The notes under the pieces are model-generated. The model saw only the letters and a list, made by a program, of their open reading frames with translations, was not told the DNA's origin and made no database searches. This document shows positions 10,897 through 32,586 of a stretch of DNA of 35,057 nucleotides, piece by piece; position 1 is the stretch's first letter, and the number at the start of each line of letters is the position of its first letter. The stretch is from Armatimonadota bacterium (GTDB lineage: Bacteria > Armatimonadota > UBA5829): contig JAPLCU010000074.1 of NCBI GenBank assembly GCA_026392045.1, positions 1 to 35,057 of the forward strand, written 5' to 3'. Made by a program: the position numbers and the translations under genes.

Positions 10897-10911
10897 CGAA
10901 ATCATCAATCG

Positions 10912-11360: not shown

Positions 11361-11372
11361 ACGCCATCTCCT

Positions 11373-12079: not shown

Positions 12080-12083
12080 AGCA

Positions 12084-13124: not shown

Positions 13125-13138
13125 AATCTGTCCTTTTT

Positions 13139-13209: not shown

Positions 13210-13215
13210 TATCAC

Positions 13216-14163: not shown

Positions 14164-14182
14164 AATATACCTTTTGGTTAAC

Positions 14183-14249: not shown

Positions 14250-14711
14250 CGGAGTCACGCCGTCAAACGGCCCAATTTTCTTAATTCTTTCGGTCATCTC
14301 AGTCATGAGTTCCGCGAATCTGTTGCCCTCGGATGCCGATACCCACTCAAAGTGGAACCTCTCCCTGGGGACCCCCAGGGTCTCGAGGAGGTCCTGGAGC
14401 ATTGCGATTCGGCGGCGGGCGTAATAGTTGCCCTTGGCATAATGGCAGTCTCCCGGGTGGCACCCGAGCACCATCACGGCGTCAAAGCCCTTTTGGAACC
14501 CTTTAAGCACAAACATCGGGTCCACACGCCCGGAACAGGGCACGCGCACGATGCGTATCGATTCAGGATAATGCAGCCTGGCGCTGCCGGCAAGGTCCGC
14601 CCCGGCGTAGCTGCACCAGTTGCAAAGTATTCCAAGAATAGCCGGCTGCCATTCTTTGGGCTGCTTAATCTCTTCAATTTCCGATTCTATGGTTTTTGTT
14701 TCTTCAGACAT
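14247..14711 (-). CDS. mvhD: MvhD/FlxD-type hydrogenase Fe-S subunit
   Basis: The 154-residue protein from the ATG at 14711 has the MvhD pattern: CNWC (C30, C33), VPCSGRV (C59), GCHPGDCHY (C84, C89). These cysteines bind the 2Fe-2S cluster that passes electrons from the hydrogenase or Flx module to HdrA. About 20 residues of charged N-terminal extension precede the domain. The GTG at 14717 is less likely. In an HdrABC-FlxABCD system this is FlxD. It lies far from hdrA because three unrelated genes intervene. Confidence 0.92.
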   Translation of the reverse strand: MSEETKTIESEIEEIKQPKEWQPAILGILCNWCSYAGADLAGSARLHYPESIRIVRVPCSGRVDPMFVLKGFQKGFDAVMVLGCHPGDCHYAKGNYYARRRIAMLQDLLETLGVPRERFHFEWVSASEGNRFAELMTEMTERIKKIGPFDGVTP

Positions 14712-14723
14712 AATCACTCTCGT

Positions 14724-14833
14724 TTGTAAGTTATAAGTTATAAGTTATAAGTTATAAGTTATAAGTTGTAAGTTGTAAGTTATGATTGCGCAACGCAGAG
14801 TCCTACTTATGACTTATGACCTAAGACTTATGA
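14724..14833. repeat. Inverted pair of heptamer arrays (TTATAAG / CTTATGA)
   Basis: Nine units of TTGTAAG/TTATAAG type run from 14724 to 14786 and four of CTTATGA/CCTAAGA type from 14806 to 14833, on either side of a short centre. The right arm ends 4 nt from the stop of the next gene (14838-14840). Confidence 0.88.
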
Positions 14834-14837
14834 CTGT

Positions 14838-15635
14838 TTACTTTACTATGTATCCAGGTTTAAGTTCGGCAATGGTGCAGGTCGATCCCTCCATCGTAAC
14901 AAACCCGCCGGCTGGGCCGGGAGCCTGCGCTGTGGAGGTGGAAACCTCGAGTTCTTTGACCACGCCGATTCCATCGGCAATCCAATAGACCCCGCGGGTC
15001 TTACCGCCTGTGACGGTAAAGTTTTGGCCCATCATATTGATATTGCCTGACGCGGTATCAGTAATATATATTACTTTCAAACAATCCTTAAATGTGCCCG
15101 CTGGGACCGTAACGCTCTCGCGGCCAATAACCTTAGCGGATAAAGGCTCTTTTGAATCTTCCCCGCGAATAGTGCCCACATCCCAGCTCTTGCCTGGCGC
15201 GGCATCTTTCGCAAAATAGAGAAGCGGCGGATCATAAGACTGCTTATCCGACTTATCTGCGCCTGTATAGGAAGTTTCGGTCGAGAGAATCTTGAGCGCC
15301 TTATTATCGTTTGTAATCCGCATTTCCGATTTCTCAGTGCTTTCCCGACCCTTGACCGAAGACCGGGTGCGGGTGGTCTCCCTATAACTATATACGGGCG
15401 CGGCGGTGCTGTTGTCTACGGAAAAAACTTCGTAAACGACAGTTCCCGAGCTGGTATCGAACATACCAACCATTTTCTGCCCCTTATACTCGACCTTGCC
15501 TTTCATCATCTTCACACATTCCATCTCCCAATGGTTACCAACAGAGCAAGGAATTGGGTCCATAGCAGCCTGGCAAGATGCAGCCGCAGCAAGTAACGAA
15601 CATGATATTAGAATCTTAGCGATTAATCGGGTCAA
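14838..15635 (-). CDS. Exported protein, possible lipoprotein, unknown function
   Basis: I start this 265-residue protein at the TTG at 15633-15635, where GGGAG stands 6-7 nt upstream; upstream in-frame ATGs add an unnatural N-terminus. A signal sequence (MTRLIAKILISCSLLAAAAS) runs into a Cys that could be a weak lipobox or be followed by cleavage after CQA. The mature part begins with a VGNHWEMEC strand, and later has VTVPAGTFKDCLKVIYIT and VYWIADGIGVVKE, typical of a widespread secreted beta-rich family whose role is unknown to me. It overlaps the previous gene by 20 nt, so it is translationally coupled to it. Confidence 0.7.
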   Translation of the reverse strand: MTRLIAKILISCSLLAAAASCQAAMDPIPCSVGNHWEMECVKMMKGKVEYKGQKMVGMFDTSSGTVVYEVFSVDNSTAAPVYSYRETTRTRSSVKGRESTEKSEMRITNDNKALKILSTETSYTGADKSDKQSYDPPLLYFAKDAAPGKSWDVGTIRGEDSKEPLSAKVIGRESVTVPAGTFKDCLKVIYITDTASGNINMMGQNFTVTGGKTRGVYWIADGIGVVKELEVSTSTAQAPGPAGGFVTMEGSTCTIAELKPGYIVK

Positions 15636-16029
15636 TTTTTTCTCCCATCTGCCGAATTGCAATTTGCGCCGCCAAGTCATCGTTCTGAGTATAGACTGGC
15701 GCTTCTTGTCCGTTAACTCTCTGATCAATAAGCCTAATGATCACCAATAACCCCACAGCAATTATTATTGCAAGCAGCGCTCCCCAGCCAAACTTAGCCA
15801 GGCTGCCATAAGGCGCTGTCTGCCACGCTTGATAAATATACTTCAGGCCAGCAATTGCTCCACCAAACGAACCTATTATCCAATGAATATGGCCCAGCCA
15901 GCCAAGACTACTATTAGCCTTTTGCGATCGCTTCTTGTCCTTATCGAGCCAGTTCTGCACCCACATGGCAACCTTGAGCGCGAACCATAAGCAGGCGATT
16001 ACGATTACGATTACAAGCACGACAAACAT
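15616..16029 (-). CDS. Small membrane protein, unknown function
   Basis: The 137-residue protein has three predicted membrane helices (about 2-24, 43-66 and 82-102) and a hydrophilic C-terminus ending in a charged stretch. The SD GAGGAGA lies 8 nt before the ATG. It overlaps the following exported-protein gene by 20 nt. I do not recognise the family. It is the middle of three cargo genes between hdrA and mvhD. Confidence 0.6.
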   Translation of the reverse strand: MFVVLVIVIVIACLWFALKVAMWVQNWLDKDKKRSQKANSSLGWLGHIHWIIGSFGGAIAGLKYIYQAWQTAPYGSLAKFGWGALLAIIIAVGLLVIIRLIDQRVNGQEAPVYTQNDDLAAQIAIRQMGEKIDPINR

Positions 16030-16078
16030 AGAGTCAATCTCCTCTATTCGGAGCCAATGAGTTTAGACTTAACCTAAG

Positions 16079-16123
16079 TTTCGGGATTTCCATTCCGCCT
16101 GCGGCTCCATTCAAATCCCGAAA
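16079..16123. repeat. 45-bp TTTCGGGA palindrome, copy A
   Basis: TTTCGGGATTT (16079-16089) and AAATCCCGAAA (16113-16123) form perfect 11-bp arms around a 23-nt loop that contains CCGCCTGCGG. It is identical over 45 bp to the copy at 16553-16597 and begins 12 nt after the stop of the gene at 16135. Confidence 0.85.
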
Positions 16124-16134
16124 TACCGGTAACT

Positions 16135-16497
16135 TCATTCATTCACACCCACCTGTCTCAAGAACTGATAGCGGCTCTTCATTACCAACCGCATACCTAT
16201 CCTGCTGGCAACTACAATAGCAAGGCCGCTGAGAAATAAAGCCAGCGGGCAGTGGCCGGAGGCCAGAATTACAACAATACACGACAACATGACGAGCTTG
16301 CCAAAACAACCAACGCCGATAGTCCACAAGAAGTGACTCTTATACCTCTGCAACACAACTTGCGCCTCTGGATGGGTTTCGGCCAATTTATCCAGCTTTT
16401 CACGCTCTTCTTCAGCCTTGGCCCAGCTCCATATGCTGTAAGCCATAGAGCCGCCGAACAAGAATAGTAAGACAAAAACGATCACAATCGCCCACAT
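16135..16497 (-). CDS. Small membrane protein, unknown function
   Basis: The 120-residue protein has an N-terminal membrane helix (2-24), a short charged coiled-coil-like linker (WAKAEEEREKLDKLAETHPEAQ), and two further helices (about 57-105). A very good SD (GAGGAGG) lies 7 nt before the ATG. I do not recognise the family. It is flanked on both sides by identical 45-bp palindromes, which suggests it was inserted or duplicated as a unit. Confidence 0.6.
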   Translation of the reverse strand: MWAIVIVFVLLFLFGGSMAYSIWSWAKAEEEREKLDKLAETHPEAQVVLQRYKSHFLWTIGVGCFGKLVMLSCIVVILASGHCPLALFLSGLAIVVASRIGMRLVMKSRYQFLRQVGVNE

Positions 16498-16552
16498 GCT
16501 ATAGCCTCCTCAGTCTGCCGCAGGAACGGCTGAATACGTGCCTAACCGCAGG

Positions 16553-16597
16553 TTTCGGGATTTCCATTCCGCCTGCGGCTCCATTCAAATCCCGAAA
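16553..16597. repeat. 45-bp TTTCGGGA palindrome, copy B
   Basis: Exact duplicate of 16079-16123, 56 nt upstream of the start of the small membrane-protein gene. The remaining gap to hdrA holds a CTCCCCCAGGAGAGGGGG hairpin near 16725-16743, a CCTTCGACAGGCTCAGGATG motif near 16701, and the array below. Confidence 0.85.
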
Positions 16598-16752
16598 GAC
16601 CCTCGAAGCAATCGCGGCTCCTACGGAGCCGACTTCGGCATCAGGATACCGAAGTAACTGGGTTTGTGCGTTGCCGTTAGGCTGCGCCCTCACCCCAGCC
16701 CTCCTTCGACAGGCTCAGGATGCACCTCCCCCAGGAGAGGGGGCAGATATGC

Positions 16753-16797
16753 TTTCCCTTCCGGGCTTTCCGCTTTCCACTTTCAGCTTTCCGCTAT
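16753..16797. repeat. CTTTCCG heptamer array at hdrA stop
   Basis: After TCCCTTCCGGG come CTTTCCG, CTTTCCA, CTTTCAG, CTTTCCG (16766-16793) and then CTATTTC. The CTA (16794-16796) is the hdrA stop codon read on the minus strand. Confidence 0.85.
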
Positions 16798-18800
16798 TTC
16801 CTTCCCTTCACCATATCCGCCAGAGCATCTATTTCGGCCAATATCTGTTTCCCTTCGAAGCCTCGCAGGTTTGCCGACAGGCTTCGGCAGGCGGCGGCGC
16901 AGGTGCCGCATCCTTTGCAGACGCCCTCGTTTACGTTCGCGACGCTCTTCATAACTTTGTTCTCGCGGGTGGACTTTTCCTTGTCCATAACCTCGATAAG
17001 CTCTATCGCGCCATACGGGCAGACATTCACACACAGGCCGCAGCCCGCGCAGGTGTCCTCGTTGATGTTCGCGATCATCGGCTCAGATAGAATCGCTTTC
17101 TTGCTGAAGAGGCCAATAACCTTGCTCGCGGCGGCTGATGCCTGCGCAACCGTATCCGGGATATCCTTGGGATACTGGCACGCGCCCGCAAGGTAGATGC
17201 CATCTGTTAGCACTTCCACCGGTTTGAGCTTCGGGTGAGCCTCTGAGAACCAGTTGTATTGGTCGGTCGATATACCCAGCATGCGGGCGAGATCCTTAGC
17301 ATCGTTCTGCGGCTGCATAGCTGTTGCGAGCACTACCAGGTCAACGCGCACTTCAACTGCCTTGCCAAGGAGCGTATCGGCGCCCTTAATGACCATCTGG
17401 CCGTTGTCGGGATAAATCTTGGATACGCGCCCGCGTATGTAATTCGCGCCAAAGTCCTCAATAGTCCTCTGAACGAACTCTTCGTAGCCCTTGCCGTTTG
17501 CGCGGATATCCATGTAAAAAACGTAAGTTTCAACATCATGCAGCTTGTCCCTGACCAGCAGCGCCTGCTTGGCGTTATACATACAGCAGACCTTGGAACA
17601 ATATGCATGGCCGTGCTCCTGATCGCGGCTTCCGACGCAGCTCAGAAACGCAATCGCCTTGGGCGTTTTGCCATCAGACGGGCGCACGATATGGCCGTCG
17701 GTGGGGCCGGAGGCGTTCATGATGCGTTCAAACTGAATAGCTGAGATAACATCAGGATACTTGCCATAGCCATATTCGCCCATCACGGAATGGTTCCAGA
17801 GGCCAAAGCCCGTGGCGACTACTATTCCTCCAAATTTCTCGGTCAGAACCTCGTCCTCTTGAGCATAATCAATAGCGCCGGTCGGGCAAATTTTCGCGCA
17901 GACGCCGCATTTATCTTCTAAAAACTTTCTGCAGTTTAATCGGTCAATGACGGGCTTGTTCGGGACAGCCTGCGGGAATGGGCGATAGATGGCGCGCCTA
18001 GTACCCATATTTTCATCAAATTCGCTCGGAATCCCCTTCACCGGGCACTTCTCAAGGCATTCGCCGCAGCCGGTGCATTTTTCATCAATAATGCTCTTCG
18101 CGCGCTTGCGAATTTTCACCTCGAAGTTGCCCACGAAGCCCTTGACCTCTTCAACCTCTGAATAGCTCCAGATGTCGATTAGAGGGTGACTGGCGCAGTC
18201 GACCATCTTAGGCGTGAGAATACACGCGGCGCAGTCGAGCGTGGGGAATGTTTTGTCGTATTGGGCCATGTGACCGCCTATGGACGGCGTGCGCTCAACG
18301 AGCACCACGGGGTATCCTGCGTCGGCGATATCGAGCGCGGCCTGTATGCCTGCGATACCTCCGCCGATAACCAAAGCCCTGCGACCGAGCGGGATTTCAT
18401 TGCGCTGAAGAGGGTCGTTCTTTGTGACCTTAGCAACAGCCATGCGAACCAGGTGAATAGCCTTCTCCGTGGTCTCGGGGGTCTTTTCGTGAACCCAGGA
18501 GCAATGCTCGCGGAGGTTCGCCATTTCCACCATATACGCATTCAGGCCGCCATCTGCAATGCAACGCTGGAAAGTGGGCTCATGGAGCCTCGGTGAACAC
18601 GACGCAATCACCACCCTGTCCAGCCGATGCTCTTTGATAGCATCCTTTACCATGTTCTGGCCCGGCTCGGAGCACATATACTTGTAATCCGTGGAATACA
18701 CGACGCCCGGCATATCCCTAGCCGCCTCAGCGACCGCCGCCACATCCACAGTTTTCGCAATATTCGATCCACACCAGCAAACAAAAACGCCAATTCGCAT
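16794..18800 (-). CDS. hdrA: HdrA-like flavin-bifurcating Fe-S subunit
   Basis: HdrA carries the FAD at which electrons bifurcate and links the MvhD/Flx side to HdrBC. The 668-residue protein shows CWCG near residue 8, the FAD motif IGGGIAG (145-151), a CTGCGECLEKCP cluster (C242-C252), a second set including CGVCAKICP (C298-C305), FLSCVGSRD then YCSKVCCMYN (388-408), and two C-terminal clusters, CAGCGLCVNVCP (584-594) and CKGCGTCAAAC (628-638). The last cluster keeps its four cysteines, but the usual Pro-Ser-Gly-Ala after it is replaced by RSLSANLRGF around a small DNA palindrome. The start has AAGGA upstream. Confidence 0.93.
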   Translation of the reverse strand: MRIGVFVCWCGSNIAKTVDVAAVAEAARDMPGVVYSTDYKYMCSEPGQNMVKDAIKEHRLDRVVIASCSPRLHEPTFQRCIADGGLNAYMVEMANLREHCSWVHEKTPETTEKAIHLVRMAVAKVTKNDPLQRNEIPLGRRALVIGGGIAGIQAALDIADAGYPVVLVERTPSIGGHMAQYDKTFPTLDCAACILTPKMVDCASHPLIDIWSYSEVEEVKGFVGNFEVKIRKRAKSIIDEKCTGCGECLEKCPVKGIPSEFDENMGTRRAIYRPFPQAVPNKPVIDRLNCRKFLEDKCGVCAKICPTGAIDYAQEDEVLTEKFGGIVVATGFGLWNHSVMGEYGYGKYPDVISAIQFERIMNASGPTDGHIVRPSDGKTPKAIAFLSCVGSRDQEHGHAYCSKVCCMYNAKQALLVRDKLHDVETYVFYMDIRANGKGYEEFVQRTIEDFGANYIRGRVSKIYPDNGQMVIKGADTLLGKAVEVRVDLVVLATAMQPQNDAKDLARMLGISTDQYNWFSEAHPKLKPVEVLTDGIYLAGACQYPKDIPDTVAQASAAASKVIGLFSKKAILSEPMIANINEDTCAGCGLCVNVCPYGAIELIEVMDKEKSTRENKVMKSVANVNEGVCKGCGTCAAACRSLSANLRGFEGKQILAEIDALADMVKGRK

Positions 18801-18822
18801 AATTTCAAAGTCCTTAGTTTAC

Positions 18823-18901
18823 AGTCGACAGTCGTCAGTCGGGGGACTATCAGCCCCAGTTTTCTAAGCTTTCAGCGGTCAGCTTTCAGCTATCAGCAAT
18901 T
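18823..18901. repeat. Heptamer arrays (AGTCGAC and AGCTTTC types)
   Basis: AGTCGAC, AGTCGTC, AGTCGGG at 18823-18843, then a GGGGACTATCAGCCCC hairpin, then AGCTTTC, AGCGGTC, AGCTTTC, AGCTATC, AGC from 18867. They fill most of the gap between hdrA and the next membrane-protein gene. Confidence 0.8.
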
Positions 18902-18928
18902 CTAACATACACATTATCTAAATCTGCA

Positions 18929-19264
18929 TTAATCGCGCGGCAATTGACCAGCTGTCCAGAGTAATCTGACGCCGCGGCCAAGACCCCACGAGAGCATCAA
19001 AACCACCAATATCAACGCTAGCCCTGCAAGAAAATATGACCTCAAGTCAGGCCAGAGCGCCATCGCATAAATGAAAGCTACAACAGGAAATGCGGCGAAC
19101 AATAATGCTGCTTTCAGCCGCCACCAACTTACGAACGCGCCGCAGAAAAACGCAGTCAAGGGCATACATAACGCCAGGCCGGAATGCGCTATTACTGAAT
19201 ACCACATGTAAAACATCGCTGCGATGCTGCAAATCGTTACCACTGCATATCTGGCTTTATTCAC
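18929..19264 (-). CDS. Four-helix membrane protein, unknown function
   Basis: The 111-residue very hydrophobic protein has about four membrane helices (8-26, 29-48, 51-72, 76-98) and short loops. It starts with GTG at 19262-19264 behind a strong SD (GAGGAGGA, about 6 nt). No family is recognised. It sits between the DUF2442 gene and hdrA and is probably co-transcribed with them. Confidence 0.6.
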   Translation of the reverse strand: MNKARYAVVTICSIAAMFYMWYSVIAHSGLALCMPLTAFFCGAFVSWWRLKAALLFAAFPVVAFIYAMALWPDLRSYFLAGLALILVVLMLSWGLGRGVRLLWTAGQLPRD

Positions 19265-19320
19265 GGCCTGTCCTCCTCATCGGAGCATTATGAAACCTGA
19301 TCTAGAGTATGCCGTGTCAT

Positions 19321-19572
19321 CTAAGCAGCCTTCTGCTGACTCAGCACATCCTGATACAACGAATCAGGACACAAATCGATTCCTCCGGGCCATGCCACCG
19401 TATGGGTTTCCTCATCAACATAAACTTTAGCGAACTCATCAGGATTGGCGAGGACTTCAAAAACGCCCTTGCCCACCATCTCAGACAAATCCACTTCGCC
19501 GACCAGCCCGTCAGTAAACGAAATCCTCAGACGGCAATTCTCAATTGGTTCAACCGACGCAACTCTGTGCAT
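19321..19572 (-). CDS. DUF2442-family protein
   Basis: The 83-residue protein has the DUF2442 pattern: RLRISFTDGLVGEVDLSEM, FAKVYVDEETHTVAWPGGIDLCPDSLY. DUF2442 genes usually sit next to DUF4160 genes as a possible toxin-antitoxin pair; no DUF4160 gene is seen on either side, so this is an orphan. AGGTG precedes the ATG. It is the third toxin-antitoxin-type gene set within the hdr-flx run. Confidence 0.85.
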   Translation of the reverse strand: MHRVASVEPIENCRLRISFTDGLVGEVDLSEMVGKGVFEVLANPDEFAKVYVDEETHTVAWPGGIDLCPDSLYQDVLSQQKAA

Positions 19573-19600
19573 ATCATCACCTACTTCAATGGCTCGATCC

Positions 19601-19648
19601 GACCATCAAACTATCAGACCATCCGACTATCCAACCATCGCGCCATCG
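19601..19648. repeat. Octamer array overlapping the 3' end of hdrB
   Basis: Six 8-bp units (GACCATCA, AACTATCA, GACCATCC, GACTATCC, AACCATCG, CGCCATCG). The hdrB stop codon (CTA at 19627-19629) lies in the fourth unit, so the last six codons of hdrB are array-encoded. An inverted-orientation array of the same type lies upstream of hdrB at 20581-20628. Confidence 0.85.
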
Positions 19649-20511
19649 GCCGTTATCGCATCCAGCGCCGAGTTCACATCCACCAAATGGCTTGCGAAGC
19701 ACTTCTTAATGCCGCGAACCTCCATTGCGAGGCCCATAAGCTCGGTGAAGTAGAAAACAGGCATGGTCAGGTCTTCGCCTCGGAGCTTGCCTGCGGCGGC
19801 CTGGCGCATTTCGAGGTTGGTCATGCACAGCGGACACGCGGTCACGATGCAGTTTGCGCCGTGCTTTTTCGCGTTTGAAATGATGTCGCCAACCAGCTTA
19901 ACCACAATCTCGCTCTTGGAAAGGCCGAAGCTCGCGCCGCAGCACTCGTTCTTGAAATACCATTCAACAGGCTCCGCGCCGATGGTTTCCATCGCCTTAT
20001 CGAGGCTTTGGGGATTTTCAGGGTCATCAAAACCGAGCACTTTCGGCGGGCGCACGAGCAGGCAGCCATAATAACACGCGGGCTTGAGACCGGTGAGCTT
20101 CTTGCGGATACCATCAGATACTTTTGCGAGCGCCTCGGAGGTCGTGAAGACCTCAAGGCTGGATTTCACGGATATTGCGCCGGTAAACGGCTTTTCGAGG
20201 TCCGCATTGATATCATCACGCAGCTTGACGTTTGCTTTAAGCTCGACCTCGGCGGAGCGCATGCGGTTGTAGCACGCCGCGCACGGGGCGACAACATCCA
20301 TCCCCATCCCCTCGGCGATTCCGAGATTTCTTGCCGGCAGCGCCACGCTCAGCCTGTGATCGAGATTATGCGCAGAGGTAGCCCCGCAGCAGTTCCAGTC
20401 ATCAATATGAACCAGCTCAACGCCGATGGCATCGCCAACCAATTGAGTCGATTCCTGAAACTCCTTAGCGGTCGATTCTAAGCTGCAGCCGGGAAAATAT
20501 GCGTATTTCAT
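19627..20511 (-). CDS. hdrB: HdrB-like heterodisulfide reductase subunit
   Basis: HdrB holds the non-cubane Fe-S clusters where the disulfide substrate is reduced. The 294 residues contain two full CCG domains: C9, CC41-42, CAAC77-80 and C146/C150, CC190-191, CPLC226-229. The first residues (MKYAYFPGCSLE) match the family start. In bacteria without methanogenesis such subunits serve DsrC-like or unknown disulfides; no dsr gene is in view. The C-terminal tail is encoded by an octamer array. The gene is separated from hdrC by a lipoprotein gene and from hdrA by two unrelated genes. Confidence 0.93.
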   Translation of the reverse strand: MKYAYFPGCSLESTAKEFQESTQLVGDAIGVELVHIDDWNCCGATSAHNLDHRLSVALPARNLGIAEGMGMDVVAPCAACYNRMRSAEVELKANVKLRDDINADLEKPFTGAISVKSSLEVFTTSEALAKVSDGIRKKLTGLKPACYYGCLLVRPPKVLGFDDPENPQSLDKAMETIGAEPVEWYFKNECCGASFGLSKSEIVVKLVGDIISNAKKHGANCIVTACPLCMTNLEMRQAAAGKLRGEDLTMPVFYFTELMGLAMEVRGIKKCFASHLVDVNSALDAITADGAMVG

Positions 20512-20520
20512 TTGTTTATT

Positions 20521-20562
20521 AGTCCTCAGTCGTCAGTCGACAGTCGACAGTCCTTAGTCGAT
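20521..20562. repeat. AGTCGAC-type heptamer array upstream of hdrB
   Basis: AGTCCTC, AGTCGTC, AGTCGAC, AGTCGAC, AGTCCTT, AGTCGAT: six units starting 10 nt upstream of the hdrB ATG. The same unit type is used upstream of hdrA (18823). Confidence 0.85.
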
Positions 20563-20580
20563 TCAAAGTCAAAAAGTGTC

Positions 20581-20628
20581 GGATGGTTTGATGGTCAGAT
20601 AGTCCGATGGCCAGATAGTCCGATGGCC
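20581..20628. repeat. Octamer array upstream of hdrB
   Basis: GGATGGTT, TGATGGTC, AGATAGTC, CGATGGCC, AGATAGTC, CGATGGCC. It is the reverse complement type of the array at the 3' end of hdrB, so hdrB is bracketed by inverted octamer arrays. Confidence 0.85.
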
Positions 20629-20676
20629 TGTCCCTTCCGGGCTCTCTGCTTTCCGCTTTCCACTCTCCACTCCTCA
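20629..20676. repeat. CTTTCCA heptamer array at the lipoprotein stop
   Basis: TGTCCCTTCCGGG, then CTCTCTG, CTTTCCG, CTTTCCA, CTCTCCA, CTCCTCA. The TCA of the last unit (20674-20676) is the stop codon of the BsuPI-like gene on the minus strand. Confidence 0.85.
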
Positions 20677-21123
20677 CGGTACCGGAACAACAATCACGGT
20701 AAGCGGATCAAGGTCTTTAGTTACCAGACCGGCGCGCACCTCGTATTTAGTACCTGCCTCGTAAGCGCCGGGTTCTAAGCTCAGCTTCCAGATTGTCTTA
20801 AACTCTTTTTTCTCGCCGGGCTGCAGAGTCAACTGGGTCAGAGCCTGCGTATACATTTTGCCGCTGCTCTCCCTGAAAACCTCTTTGCCATCGAGCATTA
20901 CCCAGGCATCCCACTGCTTCGAAGAATTAAACCTGACCGTCACCGGGTTCTTGTCGGGGTTAGAGACCGTGTATATTATCTCAACATCAGCGCTTCCGTT
21001 ATTGAACGTTACGGGGTTGACGCTGAGCTCCTGACGCGGGTCCTTAACAGTCAATTGTCCTTTACATCCCGCAAAAACAAACACCGCTGCCATAGTAACC
21101 ATCACCAATACTAAACATTTCAT
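20674..21123 (-). CDS. BsuPI-like lipoprotein
   Basis: The 149-residue protein has a lipoprotein signal (MKCLVLVMVTMAAVFVFAGC, lipobox FAGC, Cys20). One Ig-like/BsuPI-type beta-sandwich follows: IIYTVSNPDKNPVTVRFNSSKQWDAWVMLDG, then KEVFRESSGKMYTQALTQL and LEPGAYEAGTKY. BsuPI-like domains are named after a Bacillus intracellular protease inhibitor, but most exported members are uncharacterised. It is clearly paralogous to the protein at 22006-22851. It lies between hdrC and hdrB, with AAGGG before its ATG. Confidence 0.78.
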   Translation of the reverse strand: MKCLVLVMVTMAAVFVFAGCKGQLTVKDPRQELSVNPVTFNNGSADVEIIYTVSNPDKNPVTVRFNSSKQWDAWVMLDGKEVFRESSGKMYTQALTQLTLQPGEKKEFKTIWKLSLEPGAYEAGTKYEVRAGLVTKDLDPLTVIVVPVP

Positions 21124-21174
21124 ATTCCCTTACCTCACTGCGGGCAAGATTGCAAATCTGCCCGAACAAGACAT

Positions 21175-21228
21175 ATCCCTTCCGGGCTCTCTGCTTTCCG
21201 CTTTCCACTTTCCACTCTCCACTATTTC
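21175..21228. repeat. CTTTCCA heptamer array at hdrC stop
   Basis: ATCCCTTCCGGG, then CTCTCTG, CTTTCCG, CTTTCCA, CTTTCCA, CTCTCCA, CTATTTC. The CTA (21222-21224) is the hdrC stop on the minus strand. The arrangement matches those at hdrA and at the BsuPI-like gene. Confidence 0.88.
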
Positions 21229-21764
21229 CTAAACAGCCCCTTAACTTCTCTGCGGCCTTTGATAATGCTCGGAATCAGGCCGAGTTTGCCCTTGAGGAAC
21301 ATTTGCCCGCCTGCAAGGACGTCGTCAACAAATTTTCGGCTGCGCATTTTGTAGAGGGCGATGAGAGTTATCTCATGCACCCGCCCGAACATCTGCACCT
21401 GGCGCAGGAACTCTTCATGGAACTTGACCACATTCGGCTCAGCGCAGGTTTTGCCGGATTTGACGGCTATCTGGCGGCTGGCATCCATCACCTTGGAAAG
21501 AGCGACGCCGCGCGGGCATCTTGTGGCGCAAGTCTCGCAACCGGCACAAAGCCAGATCGATTTAGACTCCAGCACCTCGTCTTTAAGGCCAAGCTGCGCC
21601 ATCCGCATAATCTGGTTCGGGGTGATATCCATGGCAAACGCCGCCGGGCATCCCGCGGTGCATTCGCCGCACTGGTAGCAGCTCATAACATTCTCGCCGC
21701 ACAATTCCTGAATCTCCCGTTTGAACTCAGGGCTAACAGGACAACCGCTAACAATCACTCCCAT
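21222..21764 (-). CDS. hdrC: HdrC-like Fe-S subunit
   Basis: HdrC passes electrons from HdrA to HdrB through two 4Fe-4S clusters. With the ATG at 21764 it is 180 residues: CYQCGECTAGCP (C29-C39), then FAMDITPNQIMRMAQLGL and CAGCETCATRCP (C73-C83), a standard HdrC. The upstream in-frame ATG at 21860 lies before the predicted transcription start, so I exclude it; the start at 21764 fits relatives (a short tail before PEFKREI) although its SD is weak. It is the first gene of the flx-hdr run. Confidence 0.9.
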   Translation of the reverse strand: MGVIVSGCPVSPEFKREIQELCGENVMSCYQCGECTAGCPAAFAMDITPNQIMRMAQLGLKDEVLESKSIWLCAGCETCATRCPRGVALSKVMDASRQIAVKSGKTCAEPNVVKFHEEFLRQVQMFGRVHEITLIALYKMRSRKFVDDVLAGGQMFLKGKLGLIPSIIKGRREVKGLFRK

Positions 21765-21850
21765 ACATTCTTGGGTTTTCTCGTCAGATATCAACGTATA
21801 TCTCCATTCGGCGCTCAACAGACATTTGTGAAAAACTTCACTACATGCAT

Positions 21851-21879
21851 ATGGTAACATTACACGAGGGAATGGTCAA
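21851..21879 (-). promoter_or_regulatory. Promoter of the hdrC-led gene run
   Basis: On the minus strand TTGACC (21879-21874) and TACCAT (21856-21851) are 17 nt apart, with a TGn extension before the -10. Transcription should start near 21845, giving a leader of about 80 nt before the hdrC ATG. Confidence 0.6.
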
Positions 21880-24680: not shown

Positions 24681-27452
24681 TCAGTTTAGTTGGTTGTTTA
24701 GGTCTTCGAGTTCGGGGAGGCGGCGGTTGTAGCCGGTTTGCTCTATTAGCTTTTTTGCGGCGTTAAGGTGTGTGCGGGAGTCTGTTTTGTTGCCTTGGGC
24801 CAGGCAGAGGCGGGCGGCTTCCAGGTGGTAATTTGTGAGGTGGAGCTTCATTTCGCCGCGTTGCGCTATTTCTTTCGCTTCGTTCAGGTCGCGCCAAGCT
24901 TCTTCGTAGTCAGCTGTTATGCGGTGGAATTCTGCGCGCGCCAACAGGCCGCAGAATAGGAATTCCTGCTGCCCCGCTTCCCTCAAACGCTGCACGGCCT
25001 GATTCATGCTTTCATCGGCTGCTTTCTTTAGCTCTGAGTAAATGCCTTCTTTTTGAAGTTGTAGCACGGTGGCGCGGCCCAGACAAAGATGATTCAGGGC
25101 GATGTCCAAGAGCAATCCCTCTTTGGTGCCCCATTGGAGCGTCAATACAGCGCGTTTTTGCACTTGCTGGAAATGACCCTGGCTCAGCAGCAGGTTACAG
25201 AACCAAAAGCCCCACACGGAATAGAGGAATTGATATTCAGGCTGGCGTTTCTTTTGCATAGTCTCTGCTTCAACAAAAAGGTCATGGGCCTCTGAGGTCT
25301 TACCTGCCTGATGCAGAGCGTCTGCCAAGGCCGCGCGATCACTCATTCGCTGAAAATCATCCCCGCTACGGTCGGCGTAGGCGACGCTTTGGCGGGCATA
25401 ATCTACTGCTTCGCTCACATCTCCCAGGGTCAGCGAGAGTTCGCTCAGGTTGCCAGCTCCTCTTGCGTCGTTTTTCCAGTCCTTCTGCTTTATGCCCATT
25501 TCCAACGCAGCCTGCATTGGCGCAAGCGCTTCGCGCAATCGGCCCAGCGCGCGAAGGTGGAAGCCAGCCAGATTAAGAATTATCGCTTTGGCTGAGTCAG
25601 AAAGCGCGGCGACTGGCTGAGACCAAAGTTCTTCAAAGAAGCCGGACAGAGCTGCCAGGTCTGCGCCGAATGCGCCGAGTTTCTTTGTGCTGTAGTATTG
25701 GTTTCCGCGGCAAATCCGCGCCCAATATACTTCATCTAGCGCTTCCTGATAGCGCCCCGCGCGGCAGCCGTGAGCAACTGCGCGATATAGAGGCTCCATT
25801 TCATCCAGCGTATCCGGCAAGTCCTTCTTGGGGAGGGATTTGAAGTATTCATAGAGACGGTTATTAGCTTCTTTCCATGCCGCAGGTTTCTCTTTCTTTA
25901 GAGCCTCGCCAAAATGCTCACGGATGAGCGGGTGGCAATCTATTTCGTGCTGATACAATGCATCTTTCTGATCTAAGAGGCGCAAATCGCGCAGGCCCTT
26001 TAGCGCAAATTGCCACTGGGCATGTGTGAGGCTGCATAGAGAATCCGTCAGGCCTTTGATTTTTGGTTTCGCCCGCAGAACTTTCATTGCTCCACTATCC
26101 GCAGGGCGGTCGAAGAGGCCCATTAGATAGAGAATATCGAGTTCTGGTGTGCCTTTAAGGAATTTGATGTAAGATTTCATTACTCGGCGGGCTTGTCGGC
26201 CATTCTCATCGGGCACCTGCAATAGATCAGGAATTTCGCCTCTCTTGCGTATATCCCCGTCGTGAACTGCAGCGATATAACTGCCCAGAAGAGTTAGAGC
26301 CAGTGCGTGGCCTTGGAAGTCACGAGAAGCCTCACGGAGTTCTTCATCTGTGCATTCTTTAGCCACCCCGCGTTCCCTGAGAAGCTGTGCGCCTGCTTCA
26401 TCTGAAAGGTTATCGAGAGGCACGTTGAACTCCAGGAGATCAGGCACAGGTAGGCGGGTGCTGATTATGCACAGGCCCCAGTCTGAGCCAGCACGCGCTA
26501 GCCCGTTCAGGAGGGCTTCCATTCCTTGGTCACGCAAGCGGCCAGTTGGGTATTGGACAGGCTCTAGGCCATCGAGTATAAGAAGGGTGTGGCGTTTCAT
26601 TATGAGACCGGCAAGCCGCTCCCCTTTTTCCCACGGTGAGACTTTTGTGGGGTCGGGGTCGCCGAACCAATCTAAAGCATGGGCGAAGAACTCGTCCGCG
26701 CCTGCCTGGCGGTCTTCACCTGTCCCCTGGCTATAGAAGCTCCACCCATATACGCGCTCTGCGCCGCGATAGCTGTCGTGTTGCAGTTTTTTCAGCCAAT
26801 GGTCAACGAGTGAACTCTTGCCAACCCCACCCCAGGCTGAGAGCATTATAATGTGTTTGTGCGGGTCTTCCCAAACCTCATCCAGCATTTTCAGCTCACC
26901 ATCACGGCCAAAAAGTTTGGGGGTGGTGGATGGGAGTTTTGATAGGAATATTCTTGGTGGCGCGCTAGTTCCAACGCTGGGCCCTGCGCCGTTTTTGACT
27001 ATTTCGGCGACATCCAGCGCTATTTGTTTGAGCTCTTTCTCCTGTTTATACTTGGACATGCCCATGAGGGGACTAGCATCCTTAGGTCTGAGTTTCATGC
27101 TCGAAAGCCACGTGATCGGTTCCCACGTACACGGTTTGCAGATCACTGGAAACACAGTGACGCCTTCGTCGCTACGACGCTGCAAAAGCTTTGGCACTTC
27201 TTTTGACCGAATGAATCCAGAGGTTAGGAAATCCACAGTTACAAGGAGAATGGCGACCCTGCAAGTGGTCAGGGCTTGTTCTATTTCAGGGGACAAGTCG
27301 TCGCCCGTTTTGATGCGCGTATCGACCCAGATATCGAGCATGTCCTCCATCTCCAAGACGCGTAGATGTTTGCAAAGGCGTTCCATCCATGCCTTATCTT
27401 TGTGGGAGTAACTTATGAAGACTTTTTTGCCTGAGATTGCCCCGTCTGCCAT
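24681..27452 (-). CDS. TIR-STAND NTPase-TPR protein (NLR-like, putative defence)
   Basis: This 923-residue protein has three parts. A TIR domain (about 9-150: KVFISYSHKD, WVDTRIKTGDDL, then SGFIRSKE with Glu85 as likely NADase residue). An NB-ARC/STAND ATPase (about 180-540) with Walker A GGVGKSS (208-214), Walker B LLILD (290-294), ISTRLPVPD, and a winged-helix part. A C-terminal tetratricopeptide region (about 560-915). This architecture is that of bacterial TIR-NLR proteins, in which the TPR end senses an invader and the TIR end depletes NAD+. No partner defence gene is adjacent. A weak SD (AGGG) precedes the ATG. Confidence 0.88.
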   Translation of the reverse strand: MADGAISGKKVFISYSHKDKAWMERLCKHLRVLEMEDMLDIWVDTRIKTGDDLSPEIEQALTTCRVAILLVTVDFLTSGFIRSKEVPKLLQRRSDEGVTVFPVICKPCTWEPITWLSSMKLRPKDASPLMGMSKYKQEKELKQIALDVAEIVKNGAGPSVGTSAPPRIFLSKLPSTTPKLFGRDGELKMLDEVWEDPHKHIIMLSAWGGVGKSSLVDHWLKKLQHDSYRGAERVYGWSFYSQGTGEDRQAGADEFFAHALDWFGDPDPTKVSPWEKGERLAGLIMKRHTLLILDGLEPVQYPTGRLRDQGMEALLNGLARAGSDWGLCIISTRLPVPDLLEFNVPLDNLSDEAGAQLLRERGVAKECTDEELREASRDFQGHALALTLLGSYIAAVHDGDIRKRGEIPDLLQVPDENGRQARRVMKSYIKFLKGTPELDILYLMGLFDRPADSGAMKVLRAKPKIKGLTDSLCSLTHAQWQFALKGLRDLRLLDQKDALYQHEIDCHPLIREHFGEALKKEKPAAWKEANNRLYEYFKSLPKKDLPDTLDEMEPLYRAVAHGCRAGRYQEALDEVYWARICRGNQYYSTKKLGAFGADLAALSGFFEELWSQPVAALSDSAKAIILNLAGFHLRALGRLREALAPMQAALEMGIKQKDWKNDARGAGNLSELSLTLGDVSEAVDYARQSVAYADRSGDDFQRMSDRAALADALHQAGKTSEAHDLFVEAETMQKKRQPEYQFLYSVWGFWFCNLLLSQGHFQQVQKRAVLTLQWGTKEGLLLDIALNHLCLGRATVLQLQKEGIYSELKKAADESMNQAVQRLREAGQQEFLFCGLLARAEFHRITADYEEAWRDLNEAKEIAQRGEMKLHLTNYHLEAARLCLAQGNKTDSRTHLNAAKKLIEQTGYNRRLPELEDLNNQLN

Positions 27453-28392: not shown

Positions 28393-29319
28393 ATGGAGGG
28401 TGAATTGGAGCGAATTGATCTACAAGGGCAACCATTAGACCTTGATATTACTCTGGGCTGCGGGCAGGCGTTTCGATGGAGGAAGTGTGATGATGGGCTG
28501 TGGCGCGGAGTTGTGCGAGATAAGCTGGTGGAGTTAGCCACAGATGATGGATCGCTCCTTTGGCGAACCTATCCTGATGGCGGCCCAGGCTTGGTGAATG
28601 ACTATTTGCGGCTCTCGGAGGATATTAACGGCATCTATGAGAAGATGTCTGAGCGAGACCCGCTTATGAAAGAACTCTCAATGCGCTTGCGTGGCCTTCG
28701 TTTACTCCGGCAAGACCCTACCGAGGCGCTAATCTCCTTTGTGTGTTCAGCGGCTAATAGCATACCACGCATCATGGCTGCAATCGAGGGCCTGGCGGAG
28801 CATTACGGTGATTTAGTCTGCGAAAAGGATAATCTTTGCTACTTCGCTTTTCCGACACTCAACCACTTGATAAAGGAAGTTAGTTTGCCCGCGGAGCTGT
28901 CCCGCGCTTTGGGTTTCAGAGGGCGAACCATTCGTCAAGTTGCGCGGCATATCATAGAGCAGGGCGATGGCTGGCTGCTATCCCTGAGAAACGTCAGCTA
29001 TCCCGAAGCCAGAGACTCTCTCATGCAGATTATGGGCGTCGGCAGGAAAATTGCAGATTGCGTCTGCTTGTTTTCGTTGGACAAAGACGAGGCCGTTCCT
29101 GTAGACACGCATGTAAGGCAGCTTGCTCATAAATACTTTTTGCCTGACCTTAAAGCAAAAACCGTAACAGATGCAGTCTACAAACAAGTGGTTGATGCTT
29201 TTACGCAGAGATACGGCGAAAATGCCGGTTGGGCGCAGGAGTTTCTATTTTACGAAGATCTACTGCGAACCCGTGCGCTGGGGCGTGGTATTAAATGGGA
29301 AAAGAAAATCATGAGCTGA
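28393..29319 (+). CDS. OGG1-type 8-oxoguanine DNA glycosylase/lyase
   Basis: The 308-residue protein has the two-part OGG1 layout: an N-terminal TBP-like domain with DLDITLGCGQAFRWRK (as in the OGG1 TLxxGQxFRW motif) and a helix-hairpin-helix GPD domain with LISFVCSAANSIPRI, MGVGRKIADCVCLFSLDK and VPVDTHV. The Lys of GVGRKIADC is the Schiff-base residue and the Asp of PVDTH the catalytic acid. It should remove 8-oxoG and cut the strand. OGG1-type enzymes are common in eukaryotes and found in scattered bacteria. It overlaps the convergent transporter gene by 11 bp. The start has no strong SD. Confidence 0.88.
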   Translation: MEGELERIDLQGQPLDLDITLGCGQAFRWRKCDDGLWRGVVRDKLVELATDDGSLLWRTYPDGGPGLVNDYLRLSEDINGIYEKMSERDPLMKELSMRLRGLRLLRQDPTEALISFVCSAANSIPRIMAAIEGLAEHYGDLVCEKDNLCYFAFPTLNHLIKEVSLPAELSRALGFRGRTIRQVARHIIEQGDGWLLSLRNVSYPEARDSLMQIMGVGRKIADCVCLFSLDKDEAVPVDTHVRQLAHKYFLPDLKAKTVTDAVYKQVVDAFTQRYGENAGWAQEFLFYEDLLRTRALGRGIKWEKKIMS

Positions 29320-29686
29320 GGCCTACGAAAATTGCTCCGATTGTCACAAGCAGAATTCCAGCAGCTCTTTGCAAACTCACCGTCTCTTTCAAAACCAGCA
29401 GCGCGTATAGTGAGACAATAAGATAACTCAATGCAGTCATTGGGTTTGCCACACTGACATCCACCCAAGCTAATGCGGCAATATACGAGGCGAAATGAAA
29501 AGCCATCGAGAGCACCCCTAGAAGCACAAACGGATTAGCAAGCGCCTGCCGTATTGCAGATATTACATCTTGTGAATTTCTTACTATAATCCCGCCAGAC
29601 ATCTTCATGCCCACACTAAGCAGAATATCTCCTACGGAGGCAAAAATTATTGCCAATCCAAGCGCAACCGTCAGCTTTACGTCCAT
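29309..29686 (-). CDS. Half-size EamA/SMR-type membrane protein B
   Basis: The 125-residue protein has four membrane helices with ASVGDILLSVGMKMSG in the first helix and loop, and NPMTALSYLIVSLYALLVLKE then GILLVTIGAIFVG in helices 3-4, the pattern of small DMT proteins (SMR/ArnE-ArnF-like halves). The ATG at 29686 has GAGG 7 nt upstream; a TTG at 29701 is less likely. It aligns along its length with the protein at 29714-30112, and the two probably form a heterodimer. Substrate unknown; the radical-SAM neighbour suggests a modified lipid or metabolite. Confidence 0.78.
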   Translation of the reverse strand: MDVKLTVALGLAIIFASVGDILLSVGMKMSGGIIVRNSQDVISAIRQALANPFVLLGVLSMAFHFASYIAALAWVDVSVANPMTALSYLIVSLYALLVLKETVSLQRAAGILLVTIGAIFVGLSS

Positions 29687-29713
29687 TTGAAAGCCTCGCA
29701 AATAGTATGATTT

Positions 29714-30112
29714 TCATGTTCTGGCAACGAGCATGACGCCGGCTGCAACCAATAAACTGCCAACCCAACGCAATGGCGACACATCTTCACCCAACAATAC
29801 AAACGCAAGAAGCGTTACGAGCACATAATCAGCCGCCGCGAGAGGAAGCACAAAACTGAGGTCTTCCCAGGAAAGAGAAGCAAGATATAAGCATAAAAAA
29901 GCGATCAGTAAGCCTACCCCAGCAAGCACATAAGGATTGGCGAGCGCAAAGGAGAACGTGTCGATGAATGTTTGGCGCTCGGCAGCGGCCCCAACCTGCT
30001 TCATACCTTTACTCAGGGAGACGTCACCAAATGCAGCCAGGGTTGTGGCAATTGACATAACCGCAAGCACCTTGACCTTGCTTTGGCATATCTTTACAGT
30101 CCTTTGATCCAA
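29714..30112 (-). CDS. Half-size EamA/SMR-type membrane protein A
   Basis: The 132-residue protein has four membrane helices with AAFGDVSLSKGMKQVG in the first, LASLSWEDLSFVLPLAAADYVL in the third and LRWVGSLLVAAGVMLV in the last. It starts with TTG at 30110-30112 behind GGAGG (7 nt), and overlaps the end of the radical-SAM gene by 19 nt. It is the paralogous partner of the next gene. Pairs such as ArnE/ArnF flip lipid-linked sugars across the inner membrane; a similar role here is inference. Confidence 0.78.
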   Translation of the reverse strand: MDQRTVKICQSKVKVLAVMSIATTLAAFGDVSLSKGMKQVGAAAERQTFIDTFSFALANPYVLAGVGLLIAFLCLYLASLSWEDLSFVLPLAAADYVLVTLLAFVLLGEDVSPLRWVGSLLVAAGVMLVART

Positions 30113-32586
30113 ACACGTTCCTCCAATACCGATTTGGCCGATTCATACACGCCGCGATTGATAAGCTTTTTCAATGCTTTTCCCACATGCCAATTTCGTA
30201 AGTCTTTACCGGCATCGTTCAATGCGATAGCGATATGTTGAAGCACACTCGCATCGCGATAACAATCGATCATACATTGAGTGCAGCCGTCTCTTAGCGT
30301 TTTGGATTGATCAAAATCCCAGATAGAACAAATGGGCTCGTGCCAGGCGTGGCAGCGATACAGGTCGAATTTCCAATCCAAGTAGAAGTATTTATAGCCT
30401 GCGAGGCATGGGAATATTTGCTTTTCTCCCCTCACAAACCGCTGCATCTCCTGCAGCGAAGCCTTGGGATTGACCACTGTGAAGCTTCGTTTGAGCCTGA
30501 TAATGTCCTGAAACGCCAGAAATAGCTCGTCCGGAGTGTATTGCACAAGCTCAGATTCCGCACAACCTCTGAAGCTTGAATCAAGGGTTCGCAATGGATA
30601 AGAAAATGTGACCCGCGAAAAACCTAATGATGTAAGGAAACTGGGTAACTGAGCAATGTTGCCGAGAAGCTTGCTGAGTGTTACGGAGGCGGTTGTGGGT
30701 ATTCCCGCTTTCTTAAGAGACGTGTTCGCGTCTGCAATACGCCTGCACAGATTCTTCAGGCCTCTATTAGCCTCGTGAGATTCGATAGTTGGCGCGTCCA
30801 CAGATATAATGCAGCTATCTAAACCCGCATTCGCATATTCGTCTATGCGCTCGGGCGTAAGCAGCCAGCCGTTTGTGCAGATTATTGTGTGCATTTTATG
30901 AAGCTTCGCGTGCGAAATCATGTCCGGCAGTCCAGAATGGAGGGTGGGTTCCCCTCCAATAAACGAAATATATTCAATTCCATTTGCCGCCATTATGTCT
31001 ATTGCAGCGCAACTTTCATGCAAATCTACAAACAAACGCTGCTTGCCTGTGTCATATTCTTTTCTGAAATTGCAGAATGTGCAGCTTGCATTGCATGCAT
31101 CCGTCACGGCAAACTGGCAGAAACCCGGCCCGCCATCCTTGAGTATTCGCTTGATACCGACGGATTGCCGATCATTAGAATGCTCACTTCGATGTAGAAA
31201 TGAGACAAATTCCCTACCCTCTCGCAGCCGTCGCTTTCTAAGATCGGAATTTGCAAGCATTTGCCCGCCCATACGCATCATCACGCGTGGCCTAAAGTAA
31301 AATTGACGATAAAACCTGTCGATGGAAGCCAGCGCTTCCTGGCTATCGAGACCCTCAAGAGTCATCGCGCAAGTCTGCATGCCATTTTTATTGACCATTT
31401 TAGCTTCGTTTAGCCAGCCGTTGTCTGTTGCTTGTTTATATAGCTCTGTGCCGGGATACGGAGCAGCAATTGACACCTGGATGGTGTCCGGGTCGATTTC
31501 GCGGGCGAAGTCGATTGTCTGCTGAATGGTATTGCTGTTTTCGCCTGGTAAGCCAAGCATAAAAGTGCCGTGAACTGAGATTCCGAGGGCTTTGCAGTCG
31601 CGCATGAACCGGCGAGCCATTTCAGTATTGGCGCCCTTTCGGCAGTTCCTGAGAATGTCATCGCTGCCGGATTCAAAACCTACCATCAGAAGGCGCAGGC
31701 CGCTTTCTTTCAGCGCCTTGAGAGTCTGATATGACGCGCTTACTCGGCTGCTTGTTGACCATGTTATTCCCAGGTCCCTGATCAGCGCACCGATCCCTGC
31801 TGCGCGCCTGGGGTTGGCTGTGAATGTGTCATCATCTATGAAGTATTCTTTCACCTGTGGGAACAGTTTCTTAGCCAGCGCGAGTTCGTTGTAGACTAGC
31901 TCTGAACTGCGAACTCGATATTCGTGCCCGGACATCGTCTGCGGCCACAGGCAAAAGCTGCACTGCGAAGGACAACCACGGCCCGTGTAAATGGACAAAT
32001 ACGGATGCATTAAGTAGCCGATATAGTAGTTTTCAATAGTAAGGTCACGTTTATAAATATCCACGACATACGGCAAGCTGTTGAGGTCTGTAAGAACAGG
32101 CGCATCGGGATTATGTGTGATTGTATCTCCGCTGCGCCAACTCAGCCCTTCTATCTTTGCGATAGATTCCCCCTGAGCAACATGCGCCACGGGTATTTCA
32201 AACTCTCTGCGCGCCACAAAATCAACTGCAGGAGCGGTTCTTAGCGATTCCTCCGGCAGCACACTGACATGCGGCCCGACGAAACCAATAATCGTATCAG
32301 GGCATCGTTTCTTGATAAGCGTGGCAGTGGAAGCATCGTTTGTGAAAGAGGGAGTGCTTGTGTAGATTATAACAAGCTCATAGCTGCGCGCAATTTCCAG
32401 CACGTCCATAATGCCCAAATCATCAGCCGGGGCATCAACAACTCTACTTGAATCAACAAGCGCGGCCGCTTGAGCCAGCCACGTTGGATACCAGAATGAG
32501 CGTATTTCACGTCTGGCTTGATATCGAGAACCCGCGCCGCCATCGTAGCCGCGAAATGAAGGGGGATTGAGAAAAAGTGTATTCAT
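30094..32586 (-). CDS. Tandem radical-SAM protein: HpnJ-like N-half fused to a second radical-SAM half
   Basis: This 830-residue protein holds two radical-SAM enzymes. The N-half begins MNTLFLNPPSFRGYDGGAG, YQARREIRSFWYPTWLAQ, the pattern of HpnJ (hopanoid-associated, B12-binding type), with its cluster motif CPSQCSFC (C205, C209, C212), then a DDDTFT block and FMLGLPGE. The second half (about 485-800) has CNASCTFC (C498, C502, C505), FIGGEPTLHSG, then a SPASM-like Cys region (PCLAGYKYFY, YRCHAWHEPIC, GCTQCMIDC). HpnJ acts in forming a cyclitol headgroup on hopanoids. The fused partner and linked transporters suggest a two-step modification. No hopanoid cyclase gene is in view. Confidence 0.85.
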   Translation of the reverse strand: MNTLFLNPPSFRGYDGGAGSRYQARREIRSFWYPTWLAQAAALVDSSRVVDAPADDLGIMDVLEIARSYELVIIYTSTPSFTNDASTATLIKKRCPDTIIGFVGPHVSVLPEESLRTAPAVDFVARREFEIPVAHVAQGESIAKIEGLSWRSGDTITHNPDAPVLTDLNSLPYVVDIYKRDLTIENYYIGYLMHPYLSIYTGRGCPSQCSFCLWPQTMSGHEYRVRSSELVYNELALAKKLFPQVKEYFIDDDTFTANPRRAAGIGALIRDLGITWSTSSRVSASYQTLKALKESGLRLLMVGFESGSDDILRNCRKGANTEMARRFMRDCKALGISVHGTFMLGLPGENSNTIQQTIDFAREIDPDTIQVSIAAPYPGTELYKQATDNGWLNEAKMVNKNGMQTCAMTLEGLDSQEALASIDRFYRQFYFRPRVMMRMGGQMLANSDLRKRRLREGREFVSFLHRSEHSNDRQSVGIKRILKDGGPGFCQFAVTDACNASCTFCNFRKEYDTGKQRLFVDLHESCAAIDIMAANGIEYISFIGGEPTLHSGLPDMISHAKLHKMHTIICTNGWLLTPERIDEYANAGLDSCIISVDAPTIESHEANRGLKNLCRRIADANTSLKKAGIPTTASVTLSKLLGNIAQLPSFLTSLGFSRVTFSYPLRTLDSSFRGCAESELVQYTPDELFLAFQDIIRLKRSFTVVNPKASLQEMQRFVRGEKQIFPCLAGYKYFYLDWKFDLYRCHAWHEPICSIWDFDQSKTLRDGCTQCMIDCYRDASVLQHIAIALNDAGKDLRNWHVGKALKKLINRGVYESAKSVLEERVWIKGL

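Follow-up and report, generated by a model that had tools for sequence, protein, structure and literature searches.

The locus examined here lies in a 35,057-nucleotide (nt) stretch of DNA (hereafter, the window) from an Armatimonadota bacterium (GenBank assembly GCA_026392045.1, contig JAPLCU010000074.1), where a compact three-gene operon occupies positions 29309-32586 of the minus strand, with a lexA gene upstream on the same strand. The first open reading frame (ORF; 30094-32586, minus strand) encodes an 830-amino-acid (aa) protein with two Pfam Radical_SAM stretches and two separate CxxxCxxC sites, C205/C209/C212 and C498/C502/C505, of the radical S-adenosylmethionine (SAM) type. We divide it into a predicted B12-type radical-SAM half resembling the hopanoid enzyme HpnJ (residues 1-466, 31189..32586), a linker (residues 467-477, 31156..31188) and a second radical-SAM half, here called the partner (residues 478-830 plus stop, 30094..31155), all on the minus strand. 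The linker is variable in the family alignment and modeled with low confidence (predicted local distance difference test (pLDDT) <50 at residues 467-475 of the full-length model). Two drug/metabolite transporter (DMT) halves follow on the same strand. Half A (29714..30112; 132 aa, TTG start) shares an overlap of exactly 19 nt with the fusion gene. Half B was listed as an ORF at 29309-29701, beginning at TTG 29701, 12 nt beyond half A, but comparison with relatives suggests ATG 29686 as its true start, giving a 125-aa protein (29309..29686). ORF coordinates, family matches and helix prediction, thus, agree with a preliminary description of the locus, which had reported an 830-residue protein with two CxxxCxxC radical-SAM sites, a 19-nt overlap with a four-helix DMT half and a second half behind it.

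A search of 291 Armatimonadota genomes returned full-length relatives of the C-terminal half in five further genomes, all from one other genus of the host's family. In each, fusion and DMT genes occur in identical order, with both DMT halves present wherever the contig is long enough; one contig (L013) stops just past the first DMT gene. Four of these genomes carry an intact fused frame of ~830 aa with 63-64% identity to the window protein, while in the fifth (G240) the fused frame is recognizable despite runs of N that mask its N-terminal part. Half A, conserved in six family genomes, is 53-57% identical to the window protein and half B 50-54%, and the MDQ N-terminus of half A recurs with the identical 19-nt overlap in L012 and L014. 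Although the draft assembly comprises 206 contigs, the intact fusions in four independent genomes, with the junction aligned in all family fusion genomes, practically exclude a sequencing or assembly frameshift that joined two genes. Both circumstances that the preliminary description had named as damaging to its interpretation were checked: the frame is no artefact, and wide occurrence of the fusion without transporters was not seen, as every fusion locus found has at least one DMT gene.

By its sequence, the N-terminal half is a genuine HpnJ. It scores 691.1 bits with the HpnJ model TIGR03471 (equivalog cutoff, 577.6; 692 in the genome scan), bearing out the HpnJ-like identity proposed earlier, and its C205, C209 and C212 are invariant in 37 aligned HpnJ sequences. 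Detection of the B12-binding domain PF02310 was borderline (32.0 bits; cutoff, 32.1). Solved structures closest to this half in the full-length model were AprD4 (Z score 32.5), a radical-SAM diol dehydratase complexed with the aminoglycoside paromamine, followed by MgmA, CysS and the ring-contracting enzyme OxsB (26.5), with TsrM at 25.1; the fold is, therefore, near the B12 enzymes OxsB, CysS and TsrM, yet also near AprD4. In the described pathway, HpnI adds N-acetylglucosamine to bacteriohopanetetrol (BHT), HpnK deacetylates the product and HpnJ forms the cyclitol ether (PMC12583986, PMC5462960). The genetics behind HpnJ as BHT cyclitol ether synthase are credited to Schmerk et al. 2015 in PMC12583986 and PMC13142503.

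The host genome encodes the remainder of this pathway. Scores exceeded the cutoff for squalene-hopene cyclase (SHC; 748 bits), HpnH (411), HpnA (439) and HpnK (241), while HpnI (296) fell slightly below its cutoff of 310. SHC, HpnH and HpnA are clustered on one contig, and HpnK is followed by HpnI on another, neither of the latter genes being in the window. Because HpnJ is accompanied by all these genes, we predict that the host possesses a BHT cyclitol ether pathway. Across the family, seven genomes have SHC, HpnH and an HpnJ gene together, and the eight others have none of the three, with HpnK distributed likewise. HpnJ exceeds its cutoff in six of the seven; in G240, HpnJ and HpnK are broken and below cutoff. 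Host pathway genes and family co-occurrence make a hopanoid role of the window HpnJ well supported, upholding the link to hopanoid head groups drawn in the preliminary description. The window protein passes the equivalog cutoff and its genome contains HpnI, HpnK, HpnH and SHC, as expected for HpnJ, but described HpnJ proteins are single enzymes, whereas this one carries a second radical-SAM domain and has a DMT pair encoded behind it. Four other genomes (G295, G297, G300 and G307) each contain two HpnJ-like genes; the second copy in G295, G297 and G300 is below the HpnJ cutoff (366-394 bits) and might represent a divergent HpnJ subfamily.

The partner half has the motif pattern of radical-SAM enzymes with auxiliary clusters (SPASM/Twitch class), consisting of CxxxCxxC, a GGE motif and a C-terminal set of cysteines. 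Numbered from its own start, these are C21/C25/C28, GGEP at 67-70 and C250-x17-C268-x7-C276-x14-C291-x2-C294-x3-C298, the last six corresponding to C727, C745, C753, C768, C771 and C775 of the fusion. Twitch and SPASM radical-SAM enzymes carry an extra Fe-S cluster. Since CxxxCxxC, GGEP and the six further cysteines are all invariant in 51 aligned homologs, the partner is expected to be catalytically active as a radical-SAM enzyme and to have space for such a cluster. It matched no named SPASM or Twitch subfamily at cutoff, nor did any other NCBIfam model reach its cutoff, the best being GeoRSP with 67 bits against 400.

The C-terminal half was modeled by AlphaFold2 with high confidence (pLDDT 89.7; predicted template modeling score (pTM) 0.89), while the full-length model (pTM 0.62) does not fix the mutual placement of the two domains. 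The best match of the C-terminal half among solved structures was BlsE (PDB 7vob; Z 25.3, root-mean-square deviation 3.3 over 290 residues), followed by a next match at Z 22.0. BlsE is a cytosylglucuronate decarboxylase working on the glucuronosyl ring of cytosylglucuronate (PMC3715490). The likeness comprises the radical-SAM fold over nearly the whole domain, CxxxCxxC, GGEP and a candidate second Fe-S site, and BlsE acts on a sugar carbon; however, the two share 19% identity, differ in cysteine spacing and have no substrate known in common, and the BlsE model TIGR04466 reached 57.6 bits, below its equivalog cutoff of 400. Folds shared with BlsE, viperin or others were not counted as function. 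We also considered a second HpnH, the adenosylhopane synthase. HpnH is likewise a hopanoid-pathway radical-SAM enzyme with a similar core (hhalign probability 96.5%, 149 columns), but the partner lacks its C-terminal DUF3463 domain and scores 28.7 bits with TIGR03470 against a cutoff of 225.05, while the true HpnH encoded separately in the host genome (411 bits) has DUF3463. A general replacement for HpnK was rejected as well, given that HpnK is present besides the partner in the host and in several other genomes. No description of the partner was found in the open-access literature, a search that does not prove absence; as a companion of HpnJ, it is apparently undescribed.

For its wider distribution, we used the C-half alignment to scan 84,980 species genomes, beginning with two short exact peptide patterns, an entry point that will miss more distant relatives, and retained the best 80 of the 200 relatives obtained. 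Phylum counts are approximate because many of the records come from metagenome assemblies and some may be misnamed. Among these best 80, the partner occurs as a stand-alone gene in Cyanobacteria, Verrucomicrobia, Planctomycetes, Nitrospirae, Methylomirabilota, Proteobacteria and others; outside Armatimonadota, it is a separate gene of ~370-400 aa. The preliminary description knew of no described system with this combination of fusion and transporter pair. Both elements were confirmed, but the combination does not stand alone, and the second radical-SAM protein is a widespread companion of HpnJ in stand-alone form.

An hpnJ gene was present within the fetched stretch (≤13 kb) in 20 of the 77 partner loci outside Armatimonadota, in either order. 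The gene precedes the partner in two Planctomycetota (L095 and L099), one Methylomirabilota (L115), two Verrucomicrobia (L121 and L146) and L107, and follows it in L102, L116, L119, L124, L125, L130 and L155. Pairs in which hpnJ is translationally coupled to a following partner gene exist in Methylomirabilota, Planctomycetota and Verrucomicrobia, while five cyanobacterial clusters (L092, L094, L097, L100 and L122) contain HpnA, HpnH, HpnI, HpnK and HpnJ near the partner. At the genome level, HpnJ was found in 47 of 50 partner-bearing genomes outside the family, 42 above cutoff and five as partial matches mostly at contig ends; it was not found in G314, G326 and G339. As a background, HpnJ was present in 31 of 385 Alphaproteobacteria and the partner in four, three of which have HpnJ (Fisher P = 0.0018). 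The partner is, on these distributions, tied to HpnJ yet optional. Two of the partner-bearing hopanoid clusters additionally encode, between HpnK and HpnN, a 289-aa protein that by eye is of the phytanoyl-CoA-dioxygenase type (L124:1603-2469 and L155:1653-2519); it has no NCBIfam match and might be a hopanoid hydroxylase.

The fusions group together in the HpnJ tree as one clade (support 99), to which the unfused HpnJ of G234 is sister. In the partner tree, they also form one clade (support 100), and their sister group has the hpnJ-partner order (86). On a simple reading, the fusion would have arisen from neighboring, translationally coupled genes.

Both DMT halves match EamA (PF00892; 31.4 bits for half A and 36.3 bits for half B; gathering cutoff, 28.2), and simple hydropathy and charge counts, used for all helix and orientation calls, predict four helices in each. 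Half A has five positive charges in the N terminus, second loop and C terminus versus three in the first and third loops, while half B has one versus four, predicting N-in and N-out orientations, respectively. The same bias holds across pairs, with seven of seven A-type proteins N-in (+2 to +7) and six of six B-type proteins N-out (-3 to -10); a single DMT protein in L204 is near balance (7:6). Paired small multidrug resistance (SMR) transporters of opposite bias assemble as antiparallel heterodimers, and their ArnE/ArnF subtype flips glycolipids (PMC9574504). The window pair shares with these systems adjacent genes, four helices per protein and opposite Arg/Lys bias, and because of that opposite bias we predict an antiparallel heterodimer here too. 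The ArnE/ArnF comparison made in the preliminary description, thus, holds for the paired architecture but not for family membership. Scores for ArnE/ArnF were 21-25 bits against cutoffs of 92-99 and membership in the SMR family PF00893 was not supported; the pair is nearer EamA and linked to hpnJ, not to an arn operon.

Linkage between DMT genes and hpnJ extends beyond the fusion. In Nitrospirae (L220), hpnJ is immediately followed by a DMT pair; in Bryobacteraceae (L209), the pair separates hpnJ from hpnI, the genes adjoining or overlapping by ≤4 nt. L204 has a single DMT gene, located after hpnJ-hpnK. The HpnJ tree puts the HpnJ proteins of these DMT-linked loci and of Armatimonadota together on one side of a branch supported at 98, for which reason the linkage may be old. 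Within the open-access literature, we did not find a DMT pair in hopanoid clusters described. The Bryobacteraceae operon (L209:1629-5013, hpnJ-DMT-DMT-hpnI) comes from a genome whose partner (L152) groups with Verrucomicrobia, suggesting transfer or bin contamination.

Taken together, we propose that the window encodes a hopanoid head-group operon, a reading to which we assign a probability of about 0.55. In this model, the HpnJ half would contract the ring of BHT glucosamine, supplied by HpnI and HpnK, in a B12/radical-SAM reaction that yields the five-membered aminocyclitol found in BHT cyclitol ether. The partner half would take the same lipid as its substrate, just before or just after this step, most likely by two-electron oxidation or epimerization of a hydroxyl-bearing carbon of the sugar, the cyclitol or the adjacent polyol. 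BtrN-type and BlsE-type enzymes act in this way on hydroxyl-bearing carbons, and the structural neighbors of both modeled halves, AprD4 with paromamine and BlsE, act on sugars. The DMT halves would then flip the finished amphiphile across the inner membrane as an antiparallel heterodimer. Pathway membership is well supported. From the fusion, the translational coupling and the co-occurrence, we infer that partner and HpnJ share a substrate; the partner reaction and the cargo and direction of the transporter are likewise inferred. The preliminary description had suggested two successive radical steps on a head group and a DMT pair moving the product. Fusion, the hpnJ-partner order and co-occurrence in 47 of 50 genomes strengthen the first idea, and recurrence beside hpnJ in Nitrospirae and Bryobacteraceae places the pair with HpnJ, whereas the second radical reaction and the cargo stay proposals.

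Several observations weigh against this model. Of the 31 alphaproteobacterial HpnJ genomes, 28 lack the partner, which is, therefore, not needed for the ordinary cyclitol ether and should modify rather than enable its formation. Within the host's own family, G234 (L053) has an unfused HpnJ with neither partner nor adjacent DMT genes. Conversely, the alphaproteobacterial G452 has a partner (L270:8139-9449) but no HpnJ match, and in several cyanobacteria the partner stands beside HpnA/HpnH and not HpnJ. Loci with unfused HpnJ and partner mostly have no DMT pair nearby, and fold similarity gives no reaction. Two of these genomes have further features of note: G234 still has SHC, HpnH and HpnK, making it a natural comparison strain for lipids, and G452 has HpnL (293 bits), with no hpn genes adjoining its partner.

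The main rival keeps the partner in hopanoid synthesis but has it act on the polyol side chain, for example in the oxidation that has been proposed to begin the conversion of BHT to bacteriohopanepentol, with the fusion serving only coregulation or channeling. Because cyanobacterial partners lie directly behind the core side-chain genes HpnA and HpnH, such an action would fit too. Genes for bacteriohopanepentol are unassigned, with 32-oxo oxidation as the proposed route (PMC12583986), Cyanobacteria make both bacteriohopanepentol and BHT cyclitol ether (PMC5642901) and an additional twitch-like cluster would be appropriate for oxidizing an alcohol. However, co-occurrence is with HpnJ, which is not required for pentols, and the fusion and the coupled pairs involve HpnJ and not HpnH. 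We consider side-chain action unlikely.

For the transporter, one alternative is that the DMT pair substitutes functionally for HpnL, a putative flippase-like protein encoded after HpnJ-HpnK in Proteobacteria. HpnN moves hopanoids to the outer membrane. Like the DMT pair, HpnL and HpnN are membrane proteins encoded beside HpnJ or HpnK, in their case in proteobacterial hpn clusters, but they belong to families unrelated to DMT. No HpnL was detected in the eight hopanoid-positive Armatimonadota genomes, and the same holds for G330 and G340, both with DMT genes beside hpnJ or hpnK, while all sampled alphaproteobacterial HpnJ genomes have a match. Against this stand a Nitrospirae genome (G301) with both the pair and an HpnL-like protein (165.7 bits, below cutoff), tested Cyanobacteria and most Verrucomicrobia, which lack HpnL and a DMT pair near hpnJ alike, and the unproven function of HpnL itself (PMC12583986). 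Strict replacement was rejected, given that G301 has both and many genomes have neither, and functional substitution in a looser sense appears rather doubtful. A further alternative is an ordinary metabolite or drug transporter lying in the operon by chance. DMT/EamA proteins abound and differ widely in function, the best curated matches are weak and the pair is rare near unfused HpnJ-partner loci. Nevertheless, in six genomes of two genera the pair follows the fusion whenever the contig extends far enough, and its hpnJ-adjacent occurrences in Nitrospirae and Bryobacteraceae involve HpnJ proteins from one side of the support-98 branch, leaving a chance association improbable.

If the head-group model is extended beyond the host family, the data would point to an undescribed hopanoid branch in Cyanobacteria, Verrucomicrobia, Planctomycetes, Armatimonadota and others, in which HpnJ and a second radical-SAM enzyme make a head group unlike the ordinary BHT cyclitol ether and, on one side of the HpnJ tree, a DMT heterodimer flips it. 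We regard this extension as tentative, with the odds somewhat against it. Were it true, some composite bacteriohopanepolyols of those phyla would have been misassigned in structure or overlooked. Few molecular fossils are used as much as hopanoids, and genes for much of their head-group diversity are still unassigned. The partner is a strong candidate for a head-group step: across many phyla it tracks HpnJ, and in one family the two are fused, the fusion supplying a functional link between them. As to transport, the DMT pair supplies a first candidate for a flippase devoted to composite hopanoids that does not belong to the HpnN system. Of wider interest than the fusion is, however, the existence of a widespread and apparently undescribed HpnJ partner.

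Other genes of the window were noted in passing. An OGG-type 8-oxoguanine glycosylase gene (28393-29319, plus strand) is convergent with DMT half B, with an 11-nt overlap, and its position next to the DMT pair is kept in three sister-genus genomes (L012, L014 and L016). Positions 24681-27452 (minus strand) encode a 923-aa protein that by eye has a TIR-like N terminus, an NB-ARC-like ATPase stretch and TPR-like repeats, possibly for defense or signaling. Farther away, a long hdr/mvh-like gene run (9348-21860, minus strand) with Fe-S proteins, a CCG-domain protein and an FAD-binding HdrA-like protein resembles, again by eye, an electron-bifurcation cluster of the heterodisulfide-reductase type.

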